IMG/VR virus record: IMGVR_UViG_3300020125_000109
Coordinates: 1 to 47,060 of that record
Direction: 5' to 3' (one strand)
Length of the DNA stretch: 47,060 nt
Source of the DNA: a virus
Made by a program: the position numbers and the translations under genes. Each line of letters begins with the position of its first letter. The first letter of the stretch is position 1. Shown here piece after piece: positions 1,264 to 42,300 of the stretch. The notes under the pieces are model-generated. The model was not told where the DNA came from. It did not search any database and saw only the letters and a program-made list of their open reading frames with translations.

Positions 1264-1587
1264 CTACGGAGTCTCAGCAGAGCAATCTAAGCAAAACAAG
1301 CCTACACTTGAACACATAACTATGGTCGTACCTTCTCCTTCTCCGCTATGTCGCTCAAGCGAGTGACCGCAACCGCATTTTTGCGGGTCATTCATTTCAA
1401 CATTTTCTATCGCGTGTTCTTCTGGCCAATCCTGCGCCTTGGCCTCGCTCACTTCGATTAGCTGCAAAAATCGCCTTGCCGTATCAAAGGCAGTCTTTTT
1501 GAAAGTCGGAGGATAAATATTTTCTCCGTAAAATTCCTCTATAAGCCATCCGCTATCGTTTTGTGTTATCTTATAAACCCTTTCCAT
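1264..1587 (-). CDS. Hypothetical protein with C-terminal zinc-binding cluster
   Basis: This is a 107-residue protein starting at ATG 1587 behind AAGGGGGTGGC. The N-terminal 60 residues look like a small mixed alpha/beta fold. The C-terminal half has Cys71, Cys73, His75, His80, Cys92, Cys99 and Cys102, enough for a zinc ribbon or knuckle (C-x-C-x-H then C-x2-C). It lies between a methyltransferase gene and small zinc proteins in the replication operon. No family name can be given. Binding to DNA, RNA or a protein partner is possible. Confidence 0.7.
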   Translation of the reverse strand: MERVYKITQNDSGWLIEEFYGENIYPPTFKKTAFDTARRFLQLIEVSEAKAQDWPEEHAIENVEMNDPQKCGCGHSLERHSGEGEGTTIVMCSSVGLFCLDCSAETP

Positions 1588-35421: not shown

Positions 35422-35451
35422 TTGACTTGTCACGATCAATAAAGATACAAT
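35422..35451 (+). promoter_or_regulatory. Sigma70-type promoter of the accessory arm
   Basis: TTGACT (35422-35427), 18-base spacer, TACAAT (35446-35451). Each hexamer differs from consensus at one position. Transcription should begin near 35458, about 50 bases before the first gene of the plus-strand arm. The -10 is identical to that of the replication-operon promoter, so both are probably read early by host polymerase. Confidence 0.75.
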
Positions 35452-35506: not shown

Positions 35507-35701
35507 ATGGGAAAGGCCAGTAACCGTAGTTTGATGAATAAGATCGTAAAGGCTGCTGAGATTGAAGCGTATCAGATAAAACGGGAAATGGAGCAGCCGG
35601 TTACGGCGGATATGGGGCTCAGACCTGCAAAAAAAATAGTAAGAAAAAAAAGAAAGCGATTTAAGGAAGAATGGGATGAAGTAGGCTGGATGAACGAATG
35701 A
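35507..35701 (+). CDS. Small basic hypothetical protein
   Basis: This 64-residue protein is the first gene of the accessory arm, starting at ATG 35507 behind GGAGGAATT. It is helical at the start and has a very basic stretch (V-R-K-K-R-K-R-F-K) near residues 45-53, followed by an acidic end. It may bind nucleic acid or a host enzyme, as early phage proteins often do. No family is recognised. Confidence 0.7.
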   Translation: MGKASNRSLMNKIVKAAEIEAYQIKREMEQPVTADMGLRPAKKIVRKKRKRFKEEWDEVGWMNE

Positions 35702-35705
35702 GTAA

Positions 35706-36197
35706 ATGGCCTTGAGGAAAAAGAACGCCTACGATAAATATCGCGAAGAAATGGCCTTGCGGCGTGCTAAAATGGCCAATCTAACAGTAGAGACTGCGCG
35801 ATTGAAAGCCCAAATAAGGTACGAATCGGAGATCAGACAAATGAAAGACATCCTGAAAAGCGCAGGACAGGAGGATTTAATCGCCAGGGGGGGACGTTTA
35901 GGGCCTGACGGCAAAAGATTGCGCGAAATATGGCGGTCCGGCGAATTGAAACACCCCGAAAAATACCACGGCTGGCCACGAATCCAGGAGAAATGGATCG
36001 CCATGGCCGAGCAGGAAGCCCACCACATCGAATGGGAACGTAACGCTGGGAAACGCGCTGCCGCTCAAATCGTCCTCAATGACGAAATCGTCCGAGTCCT
36101 GACCGATACCATGGGCGAATTACAAGAGTTAAATCATATCCCCATGAACCGTGTCAGAAGTACAATGAGGACAGGCAGACCACGAAAGAGAATGTAA
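35706..36197 (+). CDS. Hypothetical coiled-coil protein
   Basis: This 163-residue protein has long Arg/Glu/Ala-rich helices (about 5-60 and 95-150), a Gly-rich centre (A-R-G-G-R-L-G-P-D-G-K-R), Y-H-G-W-P-R-I near 90 and a basic C-terminus (G-R-P-R-K-R-M). No family is recognised. It follows the first early gene by four bases and is likely co-transcribed. Confidence 0.7.
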   Translation: MALRKKNAYDKYREEMALRRAKMANLTVETARLKAQIRYESEIRQMKDILKSAGQEDLIARGGRLGPDGKRLREIWRSGELKHPEKYHGWPRIQEKWIAMAEQEAHHIEWERNAGKRAAAQIVLNDEIVRVLTDTMGELQELNHIPMNRVRSTMRTGRPRKRM

Positions 36198-36208
36198 ACC
36201 TGTAAAGT

Positions 36209-36227
36209 GTGTAAAATAAATTTACAC
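36209..36227. promoter_or_regulatory. Inverted repeat GTGTAAA-5-TTTACAC
   Basis: Perfect 7-base arms around a 5-base centre, 12 bases past the stop of the upstream gene in an AT-rich gap (36198-36380). Further on, ATGTAG (36285-36290) and ATGTAC (36295-36300) stand ten bases apart. Both look like protein-binding sites. No clear -35/-10 pair is visible in the gap. Confidence 0.45.
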
Positions 36228-36380
36228 TAATTAGTCAGTAATTGAACTATAAATAGACGTATACAAGAAGTGTGCCAGTTGTAAATGTAGATAAATGTAC
36301 AATAATTGAACATGGCATTAAACTTGCATGTGAATACGATAGGCCGCGAGGCTGACGAATCACACCGCATGGGGGTTACC

Positions 36381-36923
36381 ATGAAAATAAAGACGAAAAT
36401 AGAGAAGGTGGTTTCCGAGGACAAAACAAGGCTGGCAATTTGTGAGCCTTTTTTTGACGGGAAAAACCTTTACGCAACGAATGGGCATGTTTTGGCGGTC
36501 ATTCCAGGCGACGAATTGGAAATTGATCCTGAAATGCCGGATTCTCCCGGTTATGTGCCAGTAGCGGCTATCAAAGAAGCCCGGAAGCAAAAAAACTTCT
36601 TTGAAAACCAAGTTCATTGCAACGGCTCGGCAAAGGTAATGGGCACCGGGGCCGAATATCCAAGAAACCCTAATGATTCCAATTTTCCGCAAGCGGCAAT
36701 GGCCGAGGGTTTCGCGCTGGAAGCCTGTCGGAAAAAACACATTACCATTTCCATCAACCCTGAATTGCTGTTTGATCTTGCCCAGGCCTTGGGAATGAAG
36801 GATAAAATAAAGCTGGATATTCCTATTGATGATGACGGAAATCAAGTGAATAGTGGTTTTGAAGTAAGGTCCACGAATTCAAGCACCAAAGCTCATGGGG
36901 TATTGATGCCACTTCATGGATAA
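36381..36923 (+). CDS. DNA polymerase III beta-clamp-like protein
   Basis: The start is set at ATG 36381 because GGGGG lies five bases upstream; ATGs at 36306 and 36312 are possible but without ribosome sites. The 180-residue product has L-Y-A-T-N-G-H-V-L-A-V-I-P (about 31-43), matching the A-T-D-G-H-R-L-A signature of sliding-clamp domains, then V-P-V-A-A-I-K-E-A and a late I-N-P-E-L-L-F-D-L-A-Q-A-L-G. It is about half the length of DnaN. It may mimic or modify the host clamp to draw host polymerase to phage DNA, since no phage polymerase is encoded. Homology is moderate. Confidence 0.55.
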   Translation: MKIKTKIEKVVSEDKTRLAICEPFFDGKNLYATNGHVLAVIPGDELEIDPEMPDSPGYVPVAAIKEARKQKNFFENQVHCNGSAKVMGTGAEYPRNPNDSNFPQAAMAEGFALEACRKKHITISINPELLFDLAQALGMKDKIKLDIPIDDDGNQVNSGFEVRSTNSSTKAHGVLMPLHG

Positions 36924-36930
36924 AAAAAGG
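36917..36930 (+). repeat. 14-base direct repeat beside the ribozymes (copy 1)
   Basis: TGGATAAAAAAAGG at 36917-36930 recurs exactly at 37450-37463. Copy 1 lies just before the twister-like element and includes the stop codon of the clamp-like gene. Copy 2 starts within the last bases of the hammerhead and continues into the next ribosome site. Confidence 0.85.
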
Positions 36931-36937
36931 GCGCAAG

Positions 36938-36985
36938 CCCTTAATGCGGCCAAGGCCGGTTCCAAGCCCGGATAAACGCAGAGGA
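36938..36985 (+). ncRNA. Twister-ribozyme-like element
   Basis: In order the RNA shows UAA (36942-36944, the cleavage position in twisters), P2 UGCG (36945-36948), GCC, AAG, P4 GCCGG (36955-36959), loop UUCC-AAG, CCCGG (36967-36971), AUAAA (36972-36976), P2' CGCA (36977-36980) and GAGGA (36981-36985). This matches, block by block, the published environmental twister whose core reads GCC-AAU-GCCGG-UCCC-AAG-CCCGG-AUAAA. P2 differs in sequence but still pairs, and loop bases UCC (36961-36963) can pair with GGA (36983-36985), the expected tertiary contact. The weak point is stem P1: bases before 36942 do not pair well with those after 36985. It may be weak, permuted or inactive. Confidence 0.7.
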
Positions 36986-37026
36986 TATAACACCGCCGAG
37001 GGGATACTCGGAGAAAGCAGGTAGTT

Positions 37027-37164
37027 ATGACCCACCAGCAAGCAATGGAAACCATCTTGAACGCCGAGCCAAAGGATGACTGGGCAGCGTTCATGTCGGA
37101 GGAAATGGCCCACGAATACGCCTTGGAATGCGCCATGGAACAAGTACTGTCGGGGCGGATATGA
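37027..37164 (+). CDS. Small acidic hypothetical protein (45 aa)
   Basis: ATG at 37027 follows GCAGG, and the frame ends in TGA that overlaps the ATG of the next gene. The protein is helical and acidic (D-D-W-A-A-F-M-S-E-E-M). No family is recognised. It is the first of two small genes between the twister-like element and the hammerhead, so its message could be trimmed at both ends by RNA cleavage. Confidence 0.65.
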   Translation: MTHQQAMETILNAEPKDDWAAFMSEEMAHEYALECAMEQVLSGRI

Positions 37165-37403
37165 AAATACCAGGAACCGAGCGGATCAGCGAGATTTTGC
37201 ACGAGGATTTATCCCAGCTCAACGATGATGCCTCATTTTTGGGCGTAGAACGGTTTCCTAATGAATCCGAGGAATGTTTCCGAACAAGGGTAGCCTACGC
37301 AATGCAAGTACAGTTGGGCGTACCCATCACCGGGAAGATGTTGCTCCGAATGGCCTACTGGAATATGGTAGCGAATGGAGCGGCAGCCCAGCAGATCAAT
37401 TAA
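37161..37403 (+). CDS. Small hypothetical protein
   Basis: ATG at 37161 overlaps the upstream stop (ATGA) and follows GGGGCGG. The 80-residue product is helical and acidic in its first half, with A-M-Q-V-Q-L-G-V-P-I-T-G-K-M-L-L in the second. No family is recognised. Its stop codon directly abuts the first base of hammerhead stem I, so ribosomes finishing this gene would sit on the ribozyme. Confidence 0.68.
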   Translation: MKIPGTERISEILHEDLSQLNDDASFLGVERFPNESEECFRTRVAYAMQVQLGVPITGKMLLRMAYWNMVANGAAAQQIN

Positions 37404-37452
37404 CCAGCCTGACGAGTCCTAATGGACGAAACCGGCGAAAGCCGGTAGCTGG
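37404..37452 (+). ncRNA. Hammerhead ribozyme (type I)
   Basis: All conserved parts are present in order: stem I 5' CCAGC (37404-37408), core CUGACGA (37409-37415), stem II GUCC-UAAU-GGAC (37416-37427), core GAAA (37428-37431), stem III CCGGC-GAAA-GCCGG (37432-37445), UA (37446-37447), stem I 3' GCUGG (37448-37452). All three stems are perfectly paired. Cleavage is expected after A37447 (a GUA site). Both ends leave from stem I, so it is type I. The 3' product would start about 25 bases before the TTG start of the next gene and keep its GGAGG ribosome site. Homology is very strong; activity is untested. Confidence 0.93.
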
Positions 37453-37463
37453 ATAAAAAAAGG
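37450..37463 (+). repeat. 14-base direct repeat beside the ribozymes (copy 2)
   Basis: This is identical to 36917-36930 (TGGATAAAAAAAGG). Here it overlaps the last three bases of the hammerhead and leads into GGAGG. Confidence 0.85.
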
Positions 37464-37472
37464 AGGCGTAAT

Positions 37473-37763
37473 TTGAAAAAGAAACGTTATGTTCTCGTTC
37501 GAACCTATTCGGCTGGCGTTCATGCCGGATATTTCCACAGTCGGAATGGACAAGAGGTGACATTAACCAATACCAGGCGGATTTGGTATTGGGATGGTGC
37601 GGCCTCGTTGTCCCAAATTGCGGTATCGGGAGTTTCGAAACCTCAAAACTGTAAATTTTCAGTGGTTGTGAGCAAAAACGAACTGCTCCAAGCCATTGAG
37701 GTCATGGATTGCACCGAAGAAGCGCGGAAAAACATCGAAAGCGTGTCGTCATGGAAAGCATAA
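37473..37763 (+). CDS. DUF6948-like small phage protein
   Basis: This 96-residue protein starts at TTG 37473, seven bases after AAAGGAGG. It has Y-V-L-V-R-T-Y-S-A-G-V-H-A-G-Y (about 6-20), T-R-R-I-W-Y-W-D-G-A (about 34-43), L-S-Q-I-A-x-x-G-V and C-K-F-S-V-V-V near 60, a pattern shared by many small phage proteins that I know under the label DUF6948. It is probably a compact beta-barrel. Function unknown. It is the first gene after the hammerhead. Confidence 0.78.
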   Translation: MKKKRYVLVRTYSAGVHAGYFHSRNGQEVTLTNTRRIWYWDGAASLSQIAVSGVSKPQNCKFSVVVSKNELLQAIEVMDCTEEARKNIESVSSWKA

Positions 37764-37978
37764 CTTCCGGTTCCGGTTACGGTGACGGTTCCGGTTACGG
37801 TTCCGGTTACGGTGACGGTTACGGTTCCGGTTCCGGTTCCGGTTACGGTTCCGGTTCCGGTTCCGGTTACGGTTCCGGTTCCGGTTCCGGTGACGGTTAC
37901 GGTGACGGTGACGGTGACGGTGACGGTTCCGGTGACGGTGACGGTTACGGTTCCGGTGACGGTTACGGTTACGGTTAA
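37751..37978 (+). CDS. Gly-(Ser/Tyr/Asp) dipeptide-repeat protein
   Basis: ATG at 37751 lies within the end of the previous gene. After five ordinary residues the 75-residue protein is a pure run of 35 Gly-X pairs, X being Ser, Tyr or Asp. In DNA each pair is GGTNNC (six bases). The frame starts and ends with the repeat, supporting translation, though the ribosome site is weak. Gly/Tyr-rich chains of this kind are disordered and can condense or glue. No family is recognised. Repeat number may vary between phages or be collapsed in assembly. Confidence 0.6.
   Translation: MESITSGSGYGDGSGYGSGYGDGYGSGSGSGYGSGSGSGYGSGSGSGDGYGDGDGDGDGSGDGDGYGSGDGYGYG
37767..37975 (+). repeat. Six-base tandem repeat (GGTNNC)
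   Basis: About 35 consecutive units GGTTCC, GGTTAC or GGTGAC. The fixed GGT and final C with only three codon choices point to recent growth by slippage. Confidence 0.9.
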
Positions 37979-37990
37979 AATTCGCTTTAT

Positions 37991-38042
37991 ATCGAGGACA
38001 CGCCTTCGGGCCTGTAAGTCACAATCGCGGTCCAAAGTCCGC
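37991..38042 (+). ncRNA. Possible structured leader (UUCG hairpin plus second hairpin)
   Basis: In the 82-base gap between two repeat genes, GCC-UUCG-GGC (38002-38011) forms a tetraloop hairpin extendable by ACA/UGU, and GCGG (38027-38030) pairs with CCGC (38039-38042). The ribosome site AAGGAGG follows. It could be another regulatory or cleaving RNA but matches no class I can name. Confidence 0.35.
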
Positions 38043-38060
38043 TAAATTTAAGGAGGCAAA

Positions 38061-38858
38061 ATGCTATACGAATATTCAGAAATCAAAACGTGGCCTTACA
38101 ATGAAAAGGAAGGATGTTTCGAGAAAGGTAAAATCAAAATCTGGATCACGAAATGGTGTATTGAAAACAAGACCATAAGCGACCGGGCCAGTATGGGCGA
38201 AGGGGCCAGTATGGGCGACCGGGCCAGGATGGGCGCATGGGCCAGTATGGGCGAAGGGGCCAGTATGGGCGAAGGGGCCAGGATGGGCGAAGGGGCCAGG
38301 ATGGGCGCATGGGCCAGTATGGGCAAAGGGGCCAGTATGGGCGAAGGGGCCAGTATGGGCAAAGGGGCCAGTATGGGCGAAGGGGCCAGGATGGGCGAAG
38401 GGGCCAGTATGGGCGACCGGGCCAGTATGGGCGAAGGGGCCAGGATGGGCGCATGGGCCAGTATGGGCGAAGGGGCCAGTATGGGCGAAGGGGCCAGGAT
38501 GGGCGCATGGGCCAGTATGGGCAAAGGGGCCAGTATGGGCGAAGGGGCCAGTATGGGCGAAGGGGCCAGTATGGGCGACCGGGCCAGGATGGGCGAAGGG
38601 GCAAAAATTCAACATTGCTTATCTTTTGGCCCCATTGGTTCTCGTTTGGATTACCTTCACTATTTGCCAGAGATAGGTATTTTTTGTACGGGTTGTTTTT
38701 ATGATTCTGAAAAGGTGTTGGTGGCCGCGATCAAAGAGAAACACGAGGGAACCGATTATTTGAAACCTTATTTAGCGGCGGTTAAAGCCTTGAAATTGAT
38801 CGCCACAGCCAAAGGAGTAAAAAGAGTGAAGCAAGCGGAAGGCGTAAAAGTTGGTTAA
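38061..38858 (+). CDS. Hexapeptide-repeat (left-handed beta-helix-like) protein
   Basis: This 265-residue protein starts at ATG 38061 behind AAGGAGG. Residues 1-40 form a Trp-rich head. Residues 41-178 are 23 perfect six-residue repeats of the type x-x-A-(S/R)-M-G, which in phase reads M-G-x-x-A-S, the hexapeptide rule of left-handed beta-helices with Met in the aliphatic place. The C-terminal part (L-S-F-G-P-I-G-S-R-L, then a basic helix) looks like a cap. Three such sides per turn would give a rod of about eight turns. Function is unknown; phages use such rods in adhesins and inhibitors. Confidence 0.8.
   Translation: MLYEYSEIKTWPYNEKEGCFEKGKIKIWITKWCIENKTISDRASMGEGASMGDRARMGAWASMGEGASMGEGARMGEGARMGAWASMGKGASMGEGASMGKGASMGEGARMGEGASMGDRASMGEGARMGAWASMGEGASMGEGARMGAWASMGKGASMGEGASMGEGASMGDRARMGEGAKIQHCLSFGPIGSRLDYLHYLPEIGIFCTGCFYDSEKVLVAAIKEKHEGTDYLKPYLAAVKALKLIATAKGVKRVKQAEGVKVG
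38181..38594 (+). repeat. 18-base tandem repeat, 23 units
   Basis: The unit carries the fixed part GCC-AG(T/G)-ATG-GGC preceded by two codons drawn from GAA-GGG, GAC-CGG, GCA-TGG or AAA-GGG. High DNA identity between units indicates recent duplication. Confidence 0.92.
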
Positions 38859-38886
38859 GCCGGGAAATAAATCAGGGGGTGGGGAG

Positions 38887-39174
38887 ATGAGAATTCAAGG
38901 ACGCGAAGCGGTGTTTGTGCCGACAGCAAGCGGAATAGGGATAGCCGTTTGTGGCGAAAGCGGATACCACCCGTTAGATTTGGGAGGGCCTATTCCTTAC
39001 GACAAGGCCGTAGACCTGGCAGACCGCAAAAACAAAGAGGCTCATATCGACCCGGAATTAGTCGAAGCAATTCATGTGGGCTCGATGTTTGGGTGGCATG
39101 TACCGGGAGCAATGTACAAAGGCGAATTTCAACGCAATGGACAATACAAAAACCCCAATGCAGTCACCGCTTAA
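38887..39174 (+). CDS. Small hypothetical protein
   Basis: ATG at 38887 follows GGTGGGGAG and is preferred over an upstream start within the previous gene. The 95-residue product is a mixed alpha/beta chain with G-I-G-I-A-V-C-G-E-S-G-Y and H-V-P-G-A-M-Y-K-G-E-F. No family is recognised. It lies between two repeat proteins. Confidence 0.65.
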   Translation: MRIQGREAVFVPTASGIGIAVCGESGYHPLDLGGPIPYDKAVDLADRKNKEAHIDPELVEAIHVGSMFGWHVPGAMYKGEFQRNGQYKNPNAVTA

Positions 39175-39204
39175 CCCGCCGTCAAATCGAGTGAAAGGAT
39201 TCAA

Positions 39205-39945
39205 ATGAAAACGAAGTCTGTGAAATCCGAGCCGAGGAAATCCAAGTCCGTATTAGTTCTCAAGTCCGTAAACGCTGACATGACCTCAAAAAATGGATTC
39301 AAGTACCCTGAAAATGGAACGGTGGCCTGTACCGATTGGGAACCTACCCCCGAATGTGGAAATGGATTGCACGGGCTTCTTTGGGGAGAGGGCAATTACA
39401 GCTTGTTGAATTGGACCGCTGATGCAAAATGGCTAGTAATCAAAGTGACCGAGTTCGTGAAGATCGACAACGATAAGGTGAAATTTCCTAGCGGGGTAGT
39501 GGTGTTTTGCGGTGACCGTTTAGGAGCCTGTGATTACATTCGAGCCCATGGAAACAAGGGCTTAAAATTCAGTTTAACGGCAACCGCTGGGAATTATGGC
39601 ACGGCAACCGCTGGGGACGCTGGCACGGCAACCGCTGGGTATAAGGGCACGGCAACCGCTGGGGACGCTGGCACGGCAACCGCTGGGTATAAGGGCACTG
39701 CGACCGCTGGGGACGCTGGCACTGCGACCGCTGGGAAGTATGGCACTGCGACCGCTGGGGACGCTGGCACTGCGACCGCTGGGTATAAGGGCACTGCGCT
39801 TAGTGGTGATTACGGCGCAATTTCCTTAGAAGGCTATGCTAATGGCAATTACTTCAAAGTCGTGTCCGCTGTTGGTGGCAAAAGCACTTTGAAGGCTAAA
39901 ACCAAGTACAAATTGAATGATAATAACGAATTTGTTGAGGCTTAA
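39205..39945 (+). CDS. Octapeptide-repeat protein with conserved N-terminal domain
   Basis: This 246-residue protein starts at ATG 39205 behind AAAGGA. Residues 15-112 form a domain I know from many phage and bacterial proteins of unknown function: G-F-K-Y-P, D-W-E-P-T-P-E-C-G-N-G-L-H-G-L-L-W-G-E-G, then A-K-W-L-V-I-K-V and C-G-D-R. Residues 125-204 are ten copies of an eight-residue repeat T-A-T-A-G-x-x-G, followed by a short cap. Such repeats build flat beta-rolls or helices. Similar two-part proteins are common in phages. Role unknown, possibly binding or host takeover. Confidence 0.78.
   Translation: MKTKSVKSEPRKSKSVLVLKSVNADMTSKNGFKYPENGTVACTDWEPTPECGNGLHGLLWGEGNYSLLNWTADAKWLVIKVTEFVKIDNDKVKFPSGVVVFCGDRLGACDYIRAHGNKGLKFSLTATAGNYGTATAGDAGTATAGYKGTATAGDAGTATAGYKGTATAGDAGTATAGKYGTATAGDAGTATAGYKGTALSGDYGAISLEGYANGNYFKVVSAVGGKSTLKAKTKYKLNDNNEFVEA
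39577..39816 (+). repeat. 24-base tandem repeat, 10 units
   Basis: The unit encodes T-A-T-A-G-x-x-G (x-x being NY, DA, YK or KY; the last copy is diverged). GCAACCGCTGGG and GCGACCGCTGGG variants are clustered, which shows stepwise duplication. Confidence 0.9.
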
Positions 39946-39976
39946 CGTCAAACTCATTTGATAAGGAGATTGGGCA

Positions 39977-40087
39977 ATGAAGAAAGCTTCTAATGCCAGG
40001 GACGCGGTTACTTCGACAGAGGATAAACTTTACTTTGAAAAAATAAGGCTAGAATTACTTTCTATTAAAGACGAAATGGCGTTTTGA
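39977..40087 (+). CDS. Very small hypothetical protein (36 aa)
   Basis: ATG at 39977 follows TTGATAAGGAG, the recurrent leader type of this phage. The frame runs 36 codons to TGA. The product is a charged single helix. No family is recognised. The strong ribosome site supports translation. Confidence 0.6.
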   Translation: MKKASNARDAVTSTEDKLYFEKIRLELLSIKDEMAF

Positions 40088-40090
40088 GTA

Positions 40091-40180
40091 ACCCTCGATG
40101 AGGGGTTTGAAAGAGTGGGCGGCGTGAAGTGTCGGCCAGACGCCAATGCCGAAAGCTGGGTAAGCCCGGCCCCACTCTTT
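40091..40180 (+). ncRNA. Large structured RNA: 10-bp closing stem, H-type pseudoknot and hairpin
   Basis: AAAGAGTGGG (40110-40119) pairs perfectly with CCCACTCTTT (40171-40180). Inside, GGCGT (40121-40125) pairs with ACGCC (40140-40144); its loop bases TCGGC (40132-40136) pair with GCCGA (40148-40152), making an H-type pseudoknot. GCTGGG (40155-40160) pairs with CCCGGC (40165-40170) around TAAG. A small hairpin ACCCTC/GAGGGGT (40091-40106) precedes it. It fills the 119-base gap between two small genes. The order resembles the pistol ribozyme in topology, but its conserved bases are not present, so I leave it unclassified: riboswitch, ribozyme or trans-acting RNA. Confidence 0.7.
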
Positions 40181-40206
40181 GAAACTTTGCAGCGGAAAGG
40201 GGAGTT

Positions 40207-40374
40207 ATGGAAGAACTTTACTGTACCAAATGTGGGGAATCTCTTAGACGGGCAATGATCTTAGCCTTGATGATAGACATGGGCGCAAGTTCTAATAGAT
40301 CGCCTGAGATTTGCCACGAAGACGGAGAATCACACGATTGGCAGCCGTTGAAAAAAGAAGAAGTTAAGGCTTAA
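40207..40374 (+). CDS. Small zinc-ribbon protein (55 aa)
   Basis: ATG at 40207 follows AAGGGGAGTT. The product has Cys6-x2-Cys9-Gly near the start and Cys37-His38 then His43 later, a likely single zinc site. It ends in a Lys/Glu-rich tail. No family is recognised. It comes directly after the structured RNA. Confidence 0.65.
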   Translation: MEELYCTKCGESLRRAMILALMIDMGASSNRSPEICHEDGESHDWQPLKKEEVKA

Positions 40375-40375
40375 T

Positions 40376-40391
40376 GTAAATGACCATTTAC
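40376..40391. promoter_or_regulatory. Near-palindrome GTAAATG-AC-CATTTAC
   Basis: Seven-base perfect arms around two bases, immediately after a stop codon and 15 bases before the next start. It could be an operator or a small RNA hairpin masking the next ribosome site. Confidence 0.4.
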
Positions 40392-40405
40392 GTTAGGGAG
40401 GACAA

Positions 40406-41062
40406 ATGACACCCATTGGGCCGATTGACGGGGATAAATTAGTTGAATTTTTGAAAGATACCGCTCGTAGAACTGTGGCTGCGCATGCCGGAGCCTATAG
40501 CTATATTATCGGTGAAATTGAAAATCAACAGTTTCCTTGGCCTTATCCCTCACAGGACAAGTGCGCCTACATTGACCAAAGCTCCGTCATTCAAGAGGAA
40601 TGCGGATTACCGAAAAACAACTATCGTCACGGAATGGGAATTGGAATGCACCCGTTTGTGCCATCCAAGGAACCCCGCAAATGGAAGCCGGATGAGAAGT
40701 TTAAAGCTGACTATGCCGACTTTGGGCGAGGCCAAGTACCGGCAGTATTTTTCCCTGATGGCTGCGAAAACTTTTTAGTAACTAGTGAAGATCAAGCAAA
40801 GTTGGTGGCGCGCCTCCTAAACGAATGGTTGGCTAAATCCGCCCTCAACGCCTCGGAGGAAAGGGACTTCACGCCCCAAGAGGCCTACGAGGAAGCTAGA
40901 AAACGTTACGGCGAAAGCGGGTGGGTTTTGGTTACTGATGAAGAACCCGGAAAACTCATTTATAAAGTTGGGAATCACACTACGGAATTAACTGGCAGGA
41001 GTTGGGTATCATTCCGTGCCGCCTTTGCCTCTGCTGACGCTGCCAAGGAGGAAAAGAAGTGA
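40406..41062 (+). CDS. Hypothetical protein
   Basis: This 218-residue protein starts at ATG 40406 behind AGGGAGGACAA. The central part has several Trp/Pro/Tyr-rich segments (Q-F-P-W-P-Y-P, F-V-P-S-K-E-P-R-K-W-K-P) and the C-terminal half is helical then beta. No family is recognised. It overlaps the next gene by four bases (GTGA), so both are coupled. Confidence 0.7.
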   Translation: MTPIGPIDGDKLVEFLKDTARRTVAAHAGAYSYIIGEIENQQFPWPYPSQDKCAYIDQSSVIQEECGLPKNNYRHGMGIGMHPFVPSKEPRKWKPDEKFKADYADFGRGQVPAVFFPDGCENFLVTSEDQAKLVARLLNEWLAKSALNASEERDFTPQEAYEEARKRYGESGWVLVTDEEPGKLIYKVGNHTTELTGRSWVSFRAAFASADAAKEEKK

Positions 41063-41571
41063 GCACATACAATCCTCCTCAAGGTGCTTGTCGTAAATGT
41101 GGTAACCCTGACGGCTATGATACTTTTTGGCGGGACGCCGATGACCCGCATTATGCTTGCGGCAGATGTGGAGAAAGAGAAAAACCCATGACAACCGAGA
41201 ACATGCCGAGCGAAGGGCCGTATAAAATGGGTGATCTTCTTTCAGGAAAAGTGTGGCTCATAAGACTAGCCACGGAAGAAGGGGTTGCGGGAGCTAATAT
41301 TGCCTTCGCCCAAGGCCGCTCCGCAAGTGACGCTGAACACGCACGAAAGATTAAAGAGTTTTTAGCCATATTAAAGCGAGTGAGTGCCGCCGAGGAATCT
41401 TTTTTGAATTGGTGGAAAGAGCATGACGATTGTCCTATTTGCGAAGGCAATTATGAACCCGGCGAAGGCCACATACACAACCCAGGATGTTCTGCTGAAA
41501 TGTTCTACAACATAGCTGGCGATATTCGAGAACTTTTGTCCAAGTATTCAGCCAAGGGAGAGGGAACGTGA
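41059..41571 (+). CDS. Hypothetical protein with two zinc-binding clusters
   Basis: The start is GTG 41059 behind AAGGAGGAAAAGA. The 170-residue product has an N-terminal zinc ribbon (C-R-K-C-G at 11-15, C-G-R-C-G near 34-38) and a C-terminal cluster C-P-I-C-E-G with H-I-H-N-P-G-C. Between them lie helices. The pattern suggests two independent zinc sites. No family is recognised. It is coupled to genes on both sides by GTGA overlaps. Confidence 0.72.
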   Translation: MSTYNPPQGACRKCGNPDGYDTFWRDADDPHYACGRCGEREKPMTTENMPSEGPYKMGDLLSGKVWLIRLATEEGVAGANIAFAQGRSASDAEHARKIKEFLAILKRVSAAEESFLNWWKEHDDCPICEGNYEPGEGHIHNPGCSAEMFYNIAGDIRELLSKYSAKGEGT

Positions 41572-41675
41572 GCGAGCGCCAAGAAGGTGAAGGTTACAGT
41601 GTTTTTGAATGGTTTGCCGCCATTTACTGTATTGCGCTTGCGGTGTGTTTGGAATTTGCACTATTTTTTGGTTAA
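41568..41675 (+). CDS. Very small membrane protein (35 aa)
   Basis: GTG at 41568 overlaps the upstream stop (GTGA) and follows AGGGAGAGGG. After ten polar residues the product is one hydrophobic segment (F-A-A-I-Y-C-I-A-L-A-V-C-L-E-F-A-L-F-F) ending in Gly. It is a likely single-pass membrane peptide, perhaps acting on the host envelope or excluding other phages. Confidence 0.6.
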   Translation: MSERQEGEGYSVFEWFAAIYCIALAVCLEFALFFG

Positions 41676-41684
41676 GGATGGAGC

Positions 41685-41720
41685 ATGAGTGTGGAAATTA
41701 AGAAGCCTAATAGTAAATAA
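41685..41720 (+). CDS. Possible 11-residue peptide
   Basis: ATG at 41685 follows GGATGGAGC and the frame ends after 11 codons. It may be a true micro-gene or a leader for translation of the gene at 41741. Confidence 0.2.
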   Translation: MSVEIKKPNSK

Positions 41721-41740
41721 CCTTGATAAGGAGGGCCGCA

Positions 41741-41971
41741 ATGGACTCATATTACTTCCAGCGTCTTAAAACCTCTTGGCGTAGGGTTCATAACTTAGCC
41801 ATGAGGCGTGGGGCTAGGTGTGAGCGCCACTTTAATGGATGCGCGGCCTGTGTCTACGGATCGGATTGTAGGACGGCCAGTAGGTTGATTCGGCTGGCTA
41901 GGAATGCCAGAGGTACAGCGGCAAGGATTTTGGGAGTTATAAAAAGAAATCGAAGGAAGGTGGCTGCATGA
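41741..41971 (+). CDS. Small Arg-rich Cys protein
   Basis: ATG at 41741 follows TTGATAAGGAGGGCCGCA, so it is preferred over an earlier in-frame codon. The 76-residue product is very basic, with four Cys (C-E-R-H, G-C-A-A-C, D-C-R) and Arg-rich helices. It probably binds RNA or DNA with a zinc ion. No family is recognised. It overlaps the next gene by four bases. Confidence 0.68.
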   Translation: MDSYYFQRLKTSWRRVHNLAMRRGARCERHFNGCAACVYGSDCRTASRLIRLARNARGTAARILGVIKRNRRKVAA

Positions 41972-42300
41972 AACGTCCACGCCAAAAGACTATTTTTGTT
42001 GATGAGGTTGTAGCGGCTACTTTGAAGCAGATCGCCGCCAGTAAGGGGTGGACGATAAACAATGCCATTCGGTCCATGCTGAAAATGGAGATCAAGCCTA
42101 TTGGGAGGGGAAGGCCGGTGAAAGTTAAAAAAGAGCTACCACCGGAGGCGTTCTCTAAAACCGAACTTCTTCATTCAGTGGTGGGTATTCCTGCACCCGA
42201 ACCGCCACCCGCCACGCCCGAATCTTTGCCACCTATTGAAGAATTAGACCAACCTGGCTATATTCCTCAACGCCCCTACGTTCCACCGCCTGGGATTTAA
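41968..42300 (+). CDS. Ribbon-helix-helix-like protein with Pro-rich tail
   Basis: This 110-residue protein starts at ATG 41968 (ATGA overlap, GGAAGGTGGCTGC upstream). The first 45 residues fit a ribbon-helix-helix domain: K-T-I-F-V-D-E then V-V-A-A-T-L-K-Q-I-A-A-S-K-G-W then I-N-N-A-I-R-S-M-L-K. A Pro-rich, mostly disordered tail follows. It is the last gene of the accessory arm and its stop codon overlaps, tail to tail, the stop of the primase-helicase gene. It may repress early promoters. Confidence 0.7.
   Translation: MKRPRQKTIFVDEVVAATLKQIAASKGWTINNAIRSMLKMEIKPIGRGRPVKVKKELPPEAFSKTELLHSVVGIPAPEPPPATPESLPPIEELDQPGYIPQRPYVPPPGI

Follow-up and report, generated by a model that had tools for sequence, protein, structure and literature searches.

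Type I hammerhead ribozymes that flank genes in phages and prophages self-cleave in vitro, and one from Agrobacterium does so in E. coli as well (Perreault et al. 2011, PMC3088659). The same study already proposed that long phage transcripts are cut into gene-length mRNAs. Here we analyse an element of this kind in a viral genome; throughout, "the window" is the whole 47,060-nt stretch of DNA that was analysed, and the features of the locus are collected in Table 1.

The record is that of a tailed phage, with a terminase, a head-tail adaptor (portal), a major head protein, a tail protein and helicases recognisable; the phage context assumed in a preliminary description, made from the sequence alone, is supported by the terminase, portal, major head protein and tail protein. 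That description also spoke of an early operon. A sigma-70-like match lies at 35422-35451, but shuffled sequence yields matches of this kind at least as often, so "early" can only be inferred. Positions 36900-38100 have no DNA similarity to named phages, and the ribozyme segment alone gives only weak partial matches. The gene at 36306-36923 has no relatives in IMG/VR. In-frame tandem repeat genes occur in the same operon: 37768-37977 (6-bp unit, GSGYGDG-like protein), 38185-38602 (18-bp unit, hexapeptide-type repeats ASMGEG/ARMGEG, Pfam Hexapep) and 39577-39798 (24/48-bp unit, TATAGDAG/YKG repeats behind DUF7666).

Table 1. Features of the hammerhead locus, in window coordinates.
Feature	Positions	Strand	Basis
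Block of small co-directional phage genes holding the ribozyme, between two minus-strand blocks	35507..42300	+	ORFs
Upstream gene, 80 aa; ATGA overlap with preceding ORF 37027-37164; UAA 37401-37403 adjoins stem I	37161..37403	+	ORF list
5' flank AUUAA: last bases of upstream gene and UAA stop; A403/A453 = A/A flank	37399..37403	+	sequence
Type I hammerhead ribozyme (stems I, II, III and core)	37404..37452	+	sequence, MFE, phage covariance model R1 (49.9 bits, E 2.8e-13)
Stem I 5' strand CCAGC; partner 37448-37452	37404..37408	+	sequence, MFE
Core CUGACGA (positions 3-9)	37409..37415	+	sequence
Stem II GUCC (416-419)/GGAC (424-427), loop UAAU (420-423)	37416..37427	+	sequence, MFE
GAA (12-14) 428-430; stem III A15.1 431 and CCGGC 432-436, loop GAAA 437-440, GCCGG 441-445 and U16.1 446	37428..37446	+	sequence, MFE
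Predicted cleavage between A17 (37447) and G1.1 (37448)	37447..37448	+	hammerhead numbering, NUH rule G-U-A
Stem I 3' strand GCUGG, first bases of predicted 3' product	37448..37452	+	sequence, MFE
Shine-Dalgarno GGAGG, 6 nt before TTG, retained in predicted 3' product	37462..37466	+	sequence
Downstream gene, DUF6948 (PF22253), 96 aa, TTG start	37473..37763	+	Pfam E 4.4e-31

Every core position of the hammerhead can be read in the sequence (C3 U4 G5 A6 N7 G8 A9, G12 A13 A14, A15.1-U16.1 and H17), with C at N7 and A at H17; the latter is found in 14 of 127 phage copies, C being more usual. Stems I, II and III are 5, 4 and 5 bp long and all perfect (stem III has 6 bp counting A15.1-U16.1), and the hammerhead fold coincides exactly with the MFE structure of the 49-mer (-22.9 kcal/mol; z = -4.45 relative to dinucleotide shuffles). 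Since stem I is open-ended, the element is of type I, and the family numbering places the scissile bond at A37447-G37448. The preliminary description had proposed a complete hammerhead with stems of these lengths and loops UAAU and GAAA, cut after A37447. Sequence and MFE agree on the stems and loops, the completeness is borne out by core, stems, MFE and the phage covariance model described below, and the hammerhead numbering supports the predicted cut. We thus confirm 37404-37452 (+) as a genuine type I hammerhead.

How often such a site would arise by chance was estimated with a descriptor comprising the core, GAAA, U16.1, H17 and the stems. Run on both strands of the window, it finds a single site; 200 simulated windows yield none when stems of 5/4/4 or longer are required, and 3 under the loosest setting. 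A covariance model, R1, was built from 38 phage type I hammerheads with the window copy left out. With filters off it gives 49.9 bits and E 2.8e-13 at 37404-37452, the runner-up place reaching 11 bits; E-values of this search are rough, and the gap from 49.9 to 11 bits is very large. An Rfam 15 scan of the window, in contrast, returns no match at gathering scores. When a match is forced, RF00163 (Hammerhead_1) aligns end to end at 14.1 bits against a cut-off of 34, and RF03152 (RAGATH-1-hammerhead) reaches 18.4 bits (E 1.5) against a cut-off of 56.3. The covariance-model check that the preliminary description had suggested therefore divides: the Rfam families stay below their cut-offs, and the phage model is positive.

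The RF00163 gathering score is an operational cut-off and not a defining feature of the hammerhead family. It is passed by 2 of 34 clear phage hammerheads, defined by the descriptor and drawn from 12 other viral loci (L009, L012, L031, L040, L075, L080, L084, L088, L094, L096, L104 and L119), and it rejects the other 32. The sub-threshold Rfam score of the window copy thus follows from the insensitivity of the models to phage copies, and the standard Rfam test is a false negative for the phage type I hammerhead class. As the Rfam models miss most phage copies, ribozyme abundance in phages is probably underestimated.

The core combined with a GUCC/GGAC stem II is found in at least 120 stretches of the viral collection. 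Among the matches listed there are 122 distinct viral-contig sites, 114 of which also close stems I and III (type I or III), whereas shuffling the flanks lowers this rate to 1.2%; these sites were picked by core and stem II alone, given enough flank, and, unlike in parser-based pair counts, stems I and III were not required. The pattern therefore nearly always marks a real hammerhead. Adding TAR five bases before the core leaves 52 stretches in IMG/VR against 2 in 84,980 bacterial/archaeal genomes, counts that are in line with a phage association. Many contigs carry multiple hammerheads, at most six in a 14-kb stretch. Phage stretches L012, L119, L009 and L094 each hold 3-6 of type I, most of them shortly before a start codon, and the viral contig L088 combines ~18 tRNA genes with two or more hammerheads in one stretch. 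On L104 a Twister-P5 ribozyme (RF02684, 47.1 bits; 1390-1444, minus strand) lies ~0.8 kb upstream, on the same strand, of a type I hammerhead fused to a stop codon; this one phage may make use of two ribozyme classes.

The phage hammerheads compared, ~190 in total, link the sequence of loop II to the bases beside stem I. A/A flanks occur in 52 of 53 copies with loop II U(N)AAU, against 17 of 72 with other loops, and the window copy matches this phage signature with UAAU and A403/A453. Stem I, on the other hand, has 6 bp in 93 of 95 copies whose loop II is U(N)AAU and 5 bp in the window copy, which alone among 190 joins a 5-bp stem I to this loop and A/A flanks. Copies with a 5-bp stem I often have YAR, commonly a UAR stop, beside it; the window copy thus mixes features of the two stem I groups. 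In a longer RNA the MFE structure extends stem I past the A/A mismatch, pairing UUA 37400-402 with UAA 37454-456, and an alternative 4-bp pairing of AUUA 37399-37402 with loop II UAAU is possible. A Watson-Crick pseudoknot between loop II and the 5' tail is not supported as a general feature: at least 4 pairs are available in 8 of 128 copies, against 5.7 +/- 2.1 in permuted controls. According to the earlier study, a pseudoknot is used by ~40% of hammerheads and non-Watson-Crick contacts by others (PMC3088659).

On the downstream side, the predicted cut lies 25 nt 5' of the TTG at 37473, and AGGAGG stays on the downstream piece. Downstream sequence suffices for this comparison in 120 type I copies; 101 of these have a start within 100 nt of the cut (an ATG frame of at least 40 codons; ATG or TTG for the window copy), and in 49 of them the distance is 20-29 nt, where ~7 would be expected (median 26). 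The new 5' end about 25 bases before the TTG, with the ribosome site kept, had been predicted in the preliminary description and coincides with this population mode. The surroundings of 80 other DUF6948 genes, 574 kb in all, contain no hammerhead, so we reject a tie between the ribozyme and the DUF6948 gene, in agreement with the remark that genes flanking phage and prophage hammerheads are not constant (PMC3088659).

On the upstream side, relatives of the 80-aa gene were looked for in Pfam and IMG/VR and none were found. Its UAA (37401-37403) stands at offset 0 from stem I. This abutment, also remarked on in the preliminary description, recurs in ~22% of phage type I copies: of 127 selected independently of stops, 28 show an open frame of at least 40 codons whose stop has its final base at offset 0/+1. 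At the other offsets (-12 to -1) about 0-5 frames end at each, a roughly tenfold enrichment at the end of stem I, and in 37 more copies the upstream gene runs into stem I or the core before it ends. Of the stops at 0/+1, 60% close a real gene, compared with 17% of those at -12 to -4 (Fisher p 3e-6; p-values of the geometry tests are indicative, copies from one contig or from related phages being not fully independent). Stop fusion is therefore not only a by-product of flank base composition. Genes that precede other stop-fused hammerheads encode, among others, thymidylate synthase, primase/helicase and an anti-restriction protein. Taken with the cut ~25 nt before the next start and the linkage of loop II to the flanks, this regular geometry suggests that the ribozymes punctuate mRNA, perhaps under the control of translation.

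We consider it highly probable that the element is a functional, cis-acting type I hammerhead that cuts polycistronic phage mRNA between two genes. Catalysis, its timing and its effect on expression, which we infer, would run as follows. Once RNA polymerase has moved past ~37466, stems I-III would close and the RNA would be cleaved after A37447, giving two mRNAs. The upstream one would close with two hairpins and carry a 2',3'-cyclic phosphate at its end; the downstream one would begin 5'-OH-GCUGGAUAAAAAAAGGAGG, with the DUF6948 start codon 25 nt from this new end. Cleavage would thereby define the 5' end of the downstream gene's mRNA and its leader, and the two halves would be translated and decay separately. 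Arguing for this are the complete core and stems, the R1 score obtained without the window copy, the empty set of 200 simulated windows, the reality of the family as a whole, the match to the 20-29 nt peak, the phage genome and the self-cleavage of published gene-flanking phage and prophage hammerheads (PMC3088659). Some features pull the other way: with a 5-bp stem I where 6 bp is usual for U(N)AAU, loop II may contact stem I out of register, and cleavage may be slower; A is the rarer base at H17; the arrangement does not recur at the 80 other DUF6948 genes; and the searches gave no relatives of the upstream gene that would reveal selection on the window copy. The rare combination of 5-bp stem I, 6-bp-class loop II and A/A flanks would also suit a degenerate or inactive relic kept by chance, at most an mRNA-stabilising hairpin pair, as would the absence of locus conservation in searches for relatives and around other DUF6948 genes. 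We find such a relic improbable, however: core and pairs are all undamaged, the 49.9 bits were scored against a model of intact members, and the element sits exactly between stop and Shine-Dalgarno. Chance hairpins or an intrinsic terminator in place of a ribozyme are scarcely credible. The hairpin CCGGCGAAAGCCGG is GC-rich and Rfam offers no match above cut-off, but no U tract lies 3' on either strand, no terminator-like site is called there, and no simulated window holds a comparable site; the model scores and the absent U tract exclude this reading.

A ribosome on a stop codon covers ~12-15 nt downstream, a length that corresponds to stem I plus core and makes termination-gated folding attractive. 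While translation of the upstream gene terminates at UAA 37401-37403, the ribosomes would then cover stem I and core and block folding. Cleavage would be expected only on transcripts whose upstream gene receives little translation, or once the ribosomes have left, and the expression of both genes would thus be linked. This lies outside our core claim of punctuation, and we put it forward tentatively. It is favoured by the exact junction of stop and stem I, by the excess of real frame ends at 0/+1 and by the further upstream genes that end within stem I or core. Yet compact phage genomes would pack stops against a ribozyme without regulation, which explains the position equally well; the conserved 5' flank (A beside stem I, YAR in the 5-bp class) favours stops there; and termination takes seconds or less, so the block may merely delay cleavage. 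Some inhibition of cleavage by upstream translation is likely. It is doubtful that phage type I hammerheads as a whole form a broad class of translation-responsive intercistronic switches, in which the stop is built into the stem I flank, terminating ribosomes hold the ribozyme open and cleavage makes a ~25-nt leader; were that so, cutting would report the translation state of the upstream gene.

Among described systems, RF00163 (Hammerhead_1) shares family and fold with the window copy, which like most phage copies falls under its cut-off of 34. RAGATH-1 (RF03152) shares the hammerhead core, but its conserved 5' hairpin and flanks are poorly matched, and at 18.4 bits against 56.3 we rejected membership. 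The words "stop codon", "translation" and "ribosome" are absent from the main text of PMC3088659, where stop-codon fusion was apparently left undescribed; neither the fusion nor the 25-nt spacing was found in that text or in our searches of the literature, which were limited to open access. HHphage of haloviruses HF1/HF2 (PMC3088659) likewise lies in a tailed-virus operon and shortly upstream of a start codon, at 13 nt there and at 25 nt from the cut in the window copy; it is described as a hammerhead variant, whereas the window copy has a consensus core. With the phage and prophage type I hammerheads of the same study (PMC3088659) the window copy shares core, permutation and an intergenic place in a phage operon, and it differs from them by its 5-bp stem I with loop II UAAU and by A17. 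The element described here is thus an addition to the already published gene-flanking type I hammerheads of phages.
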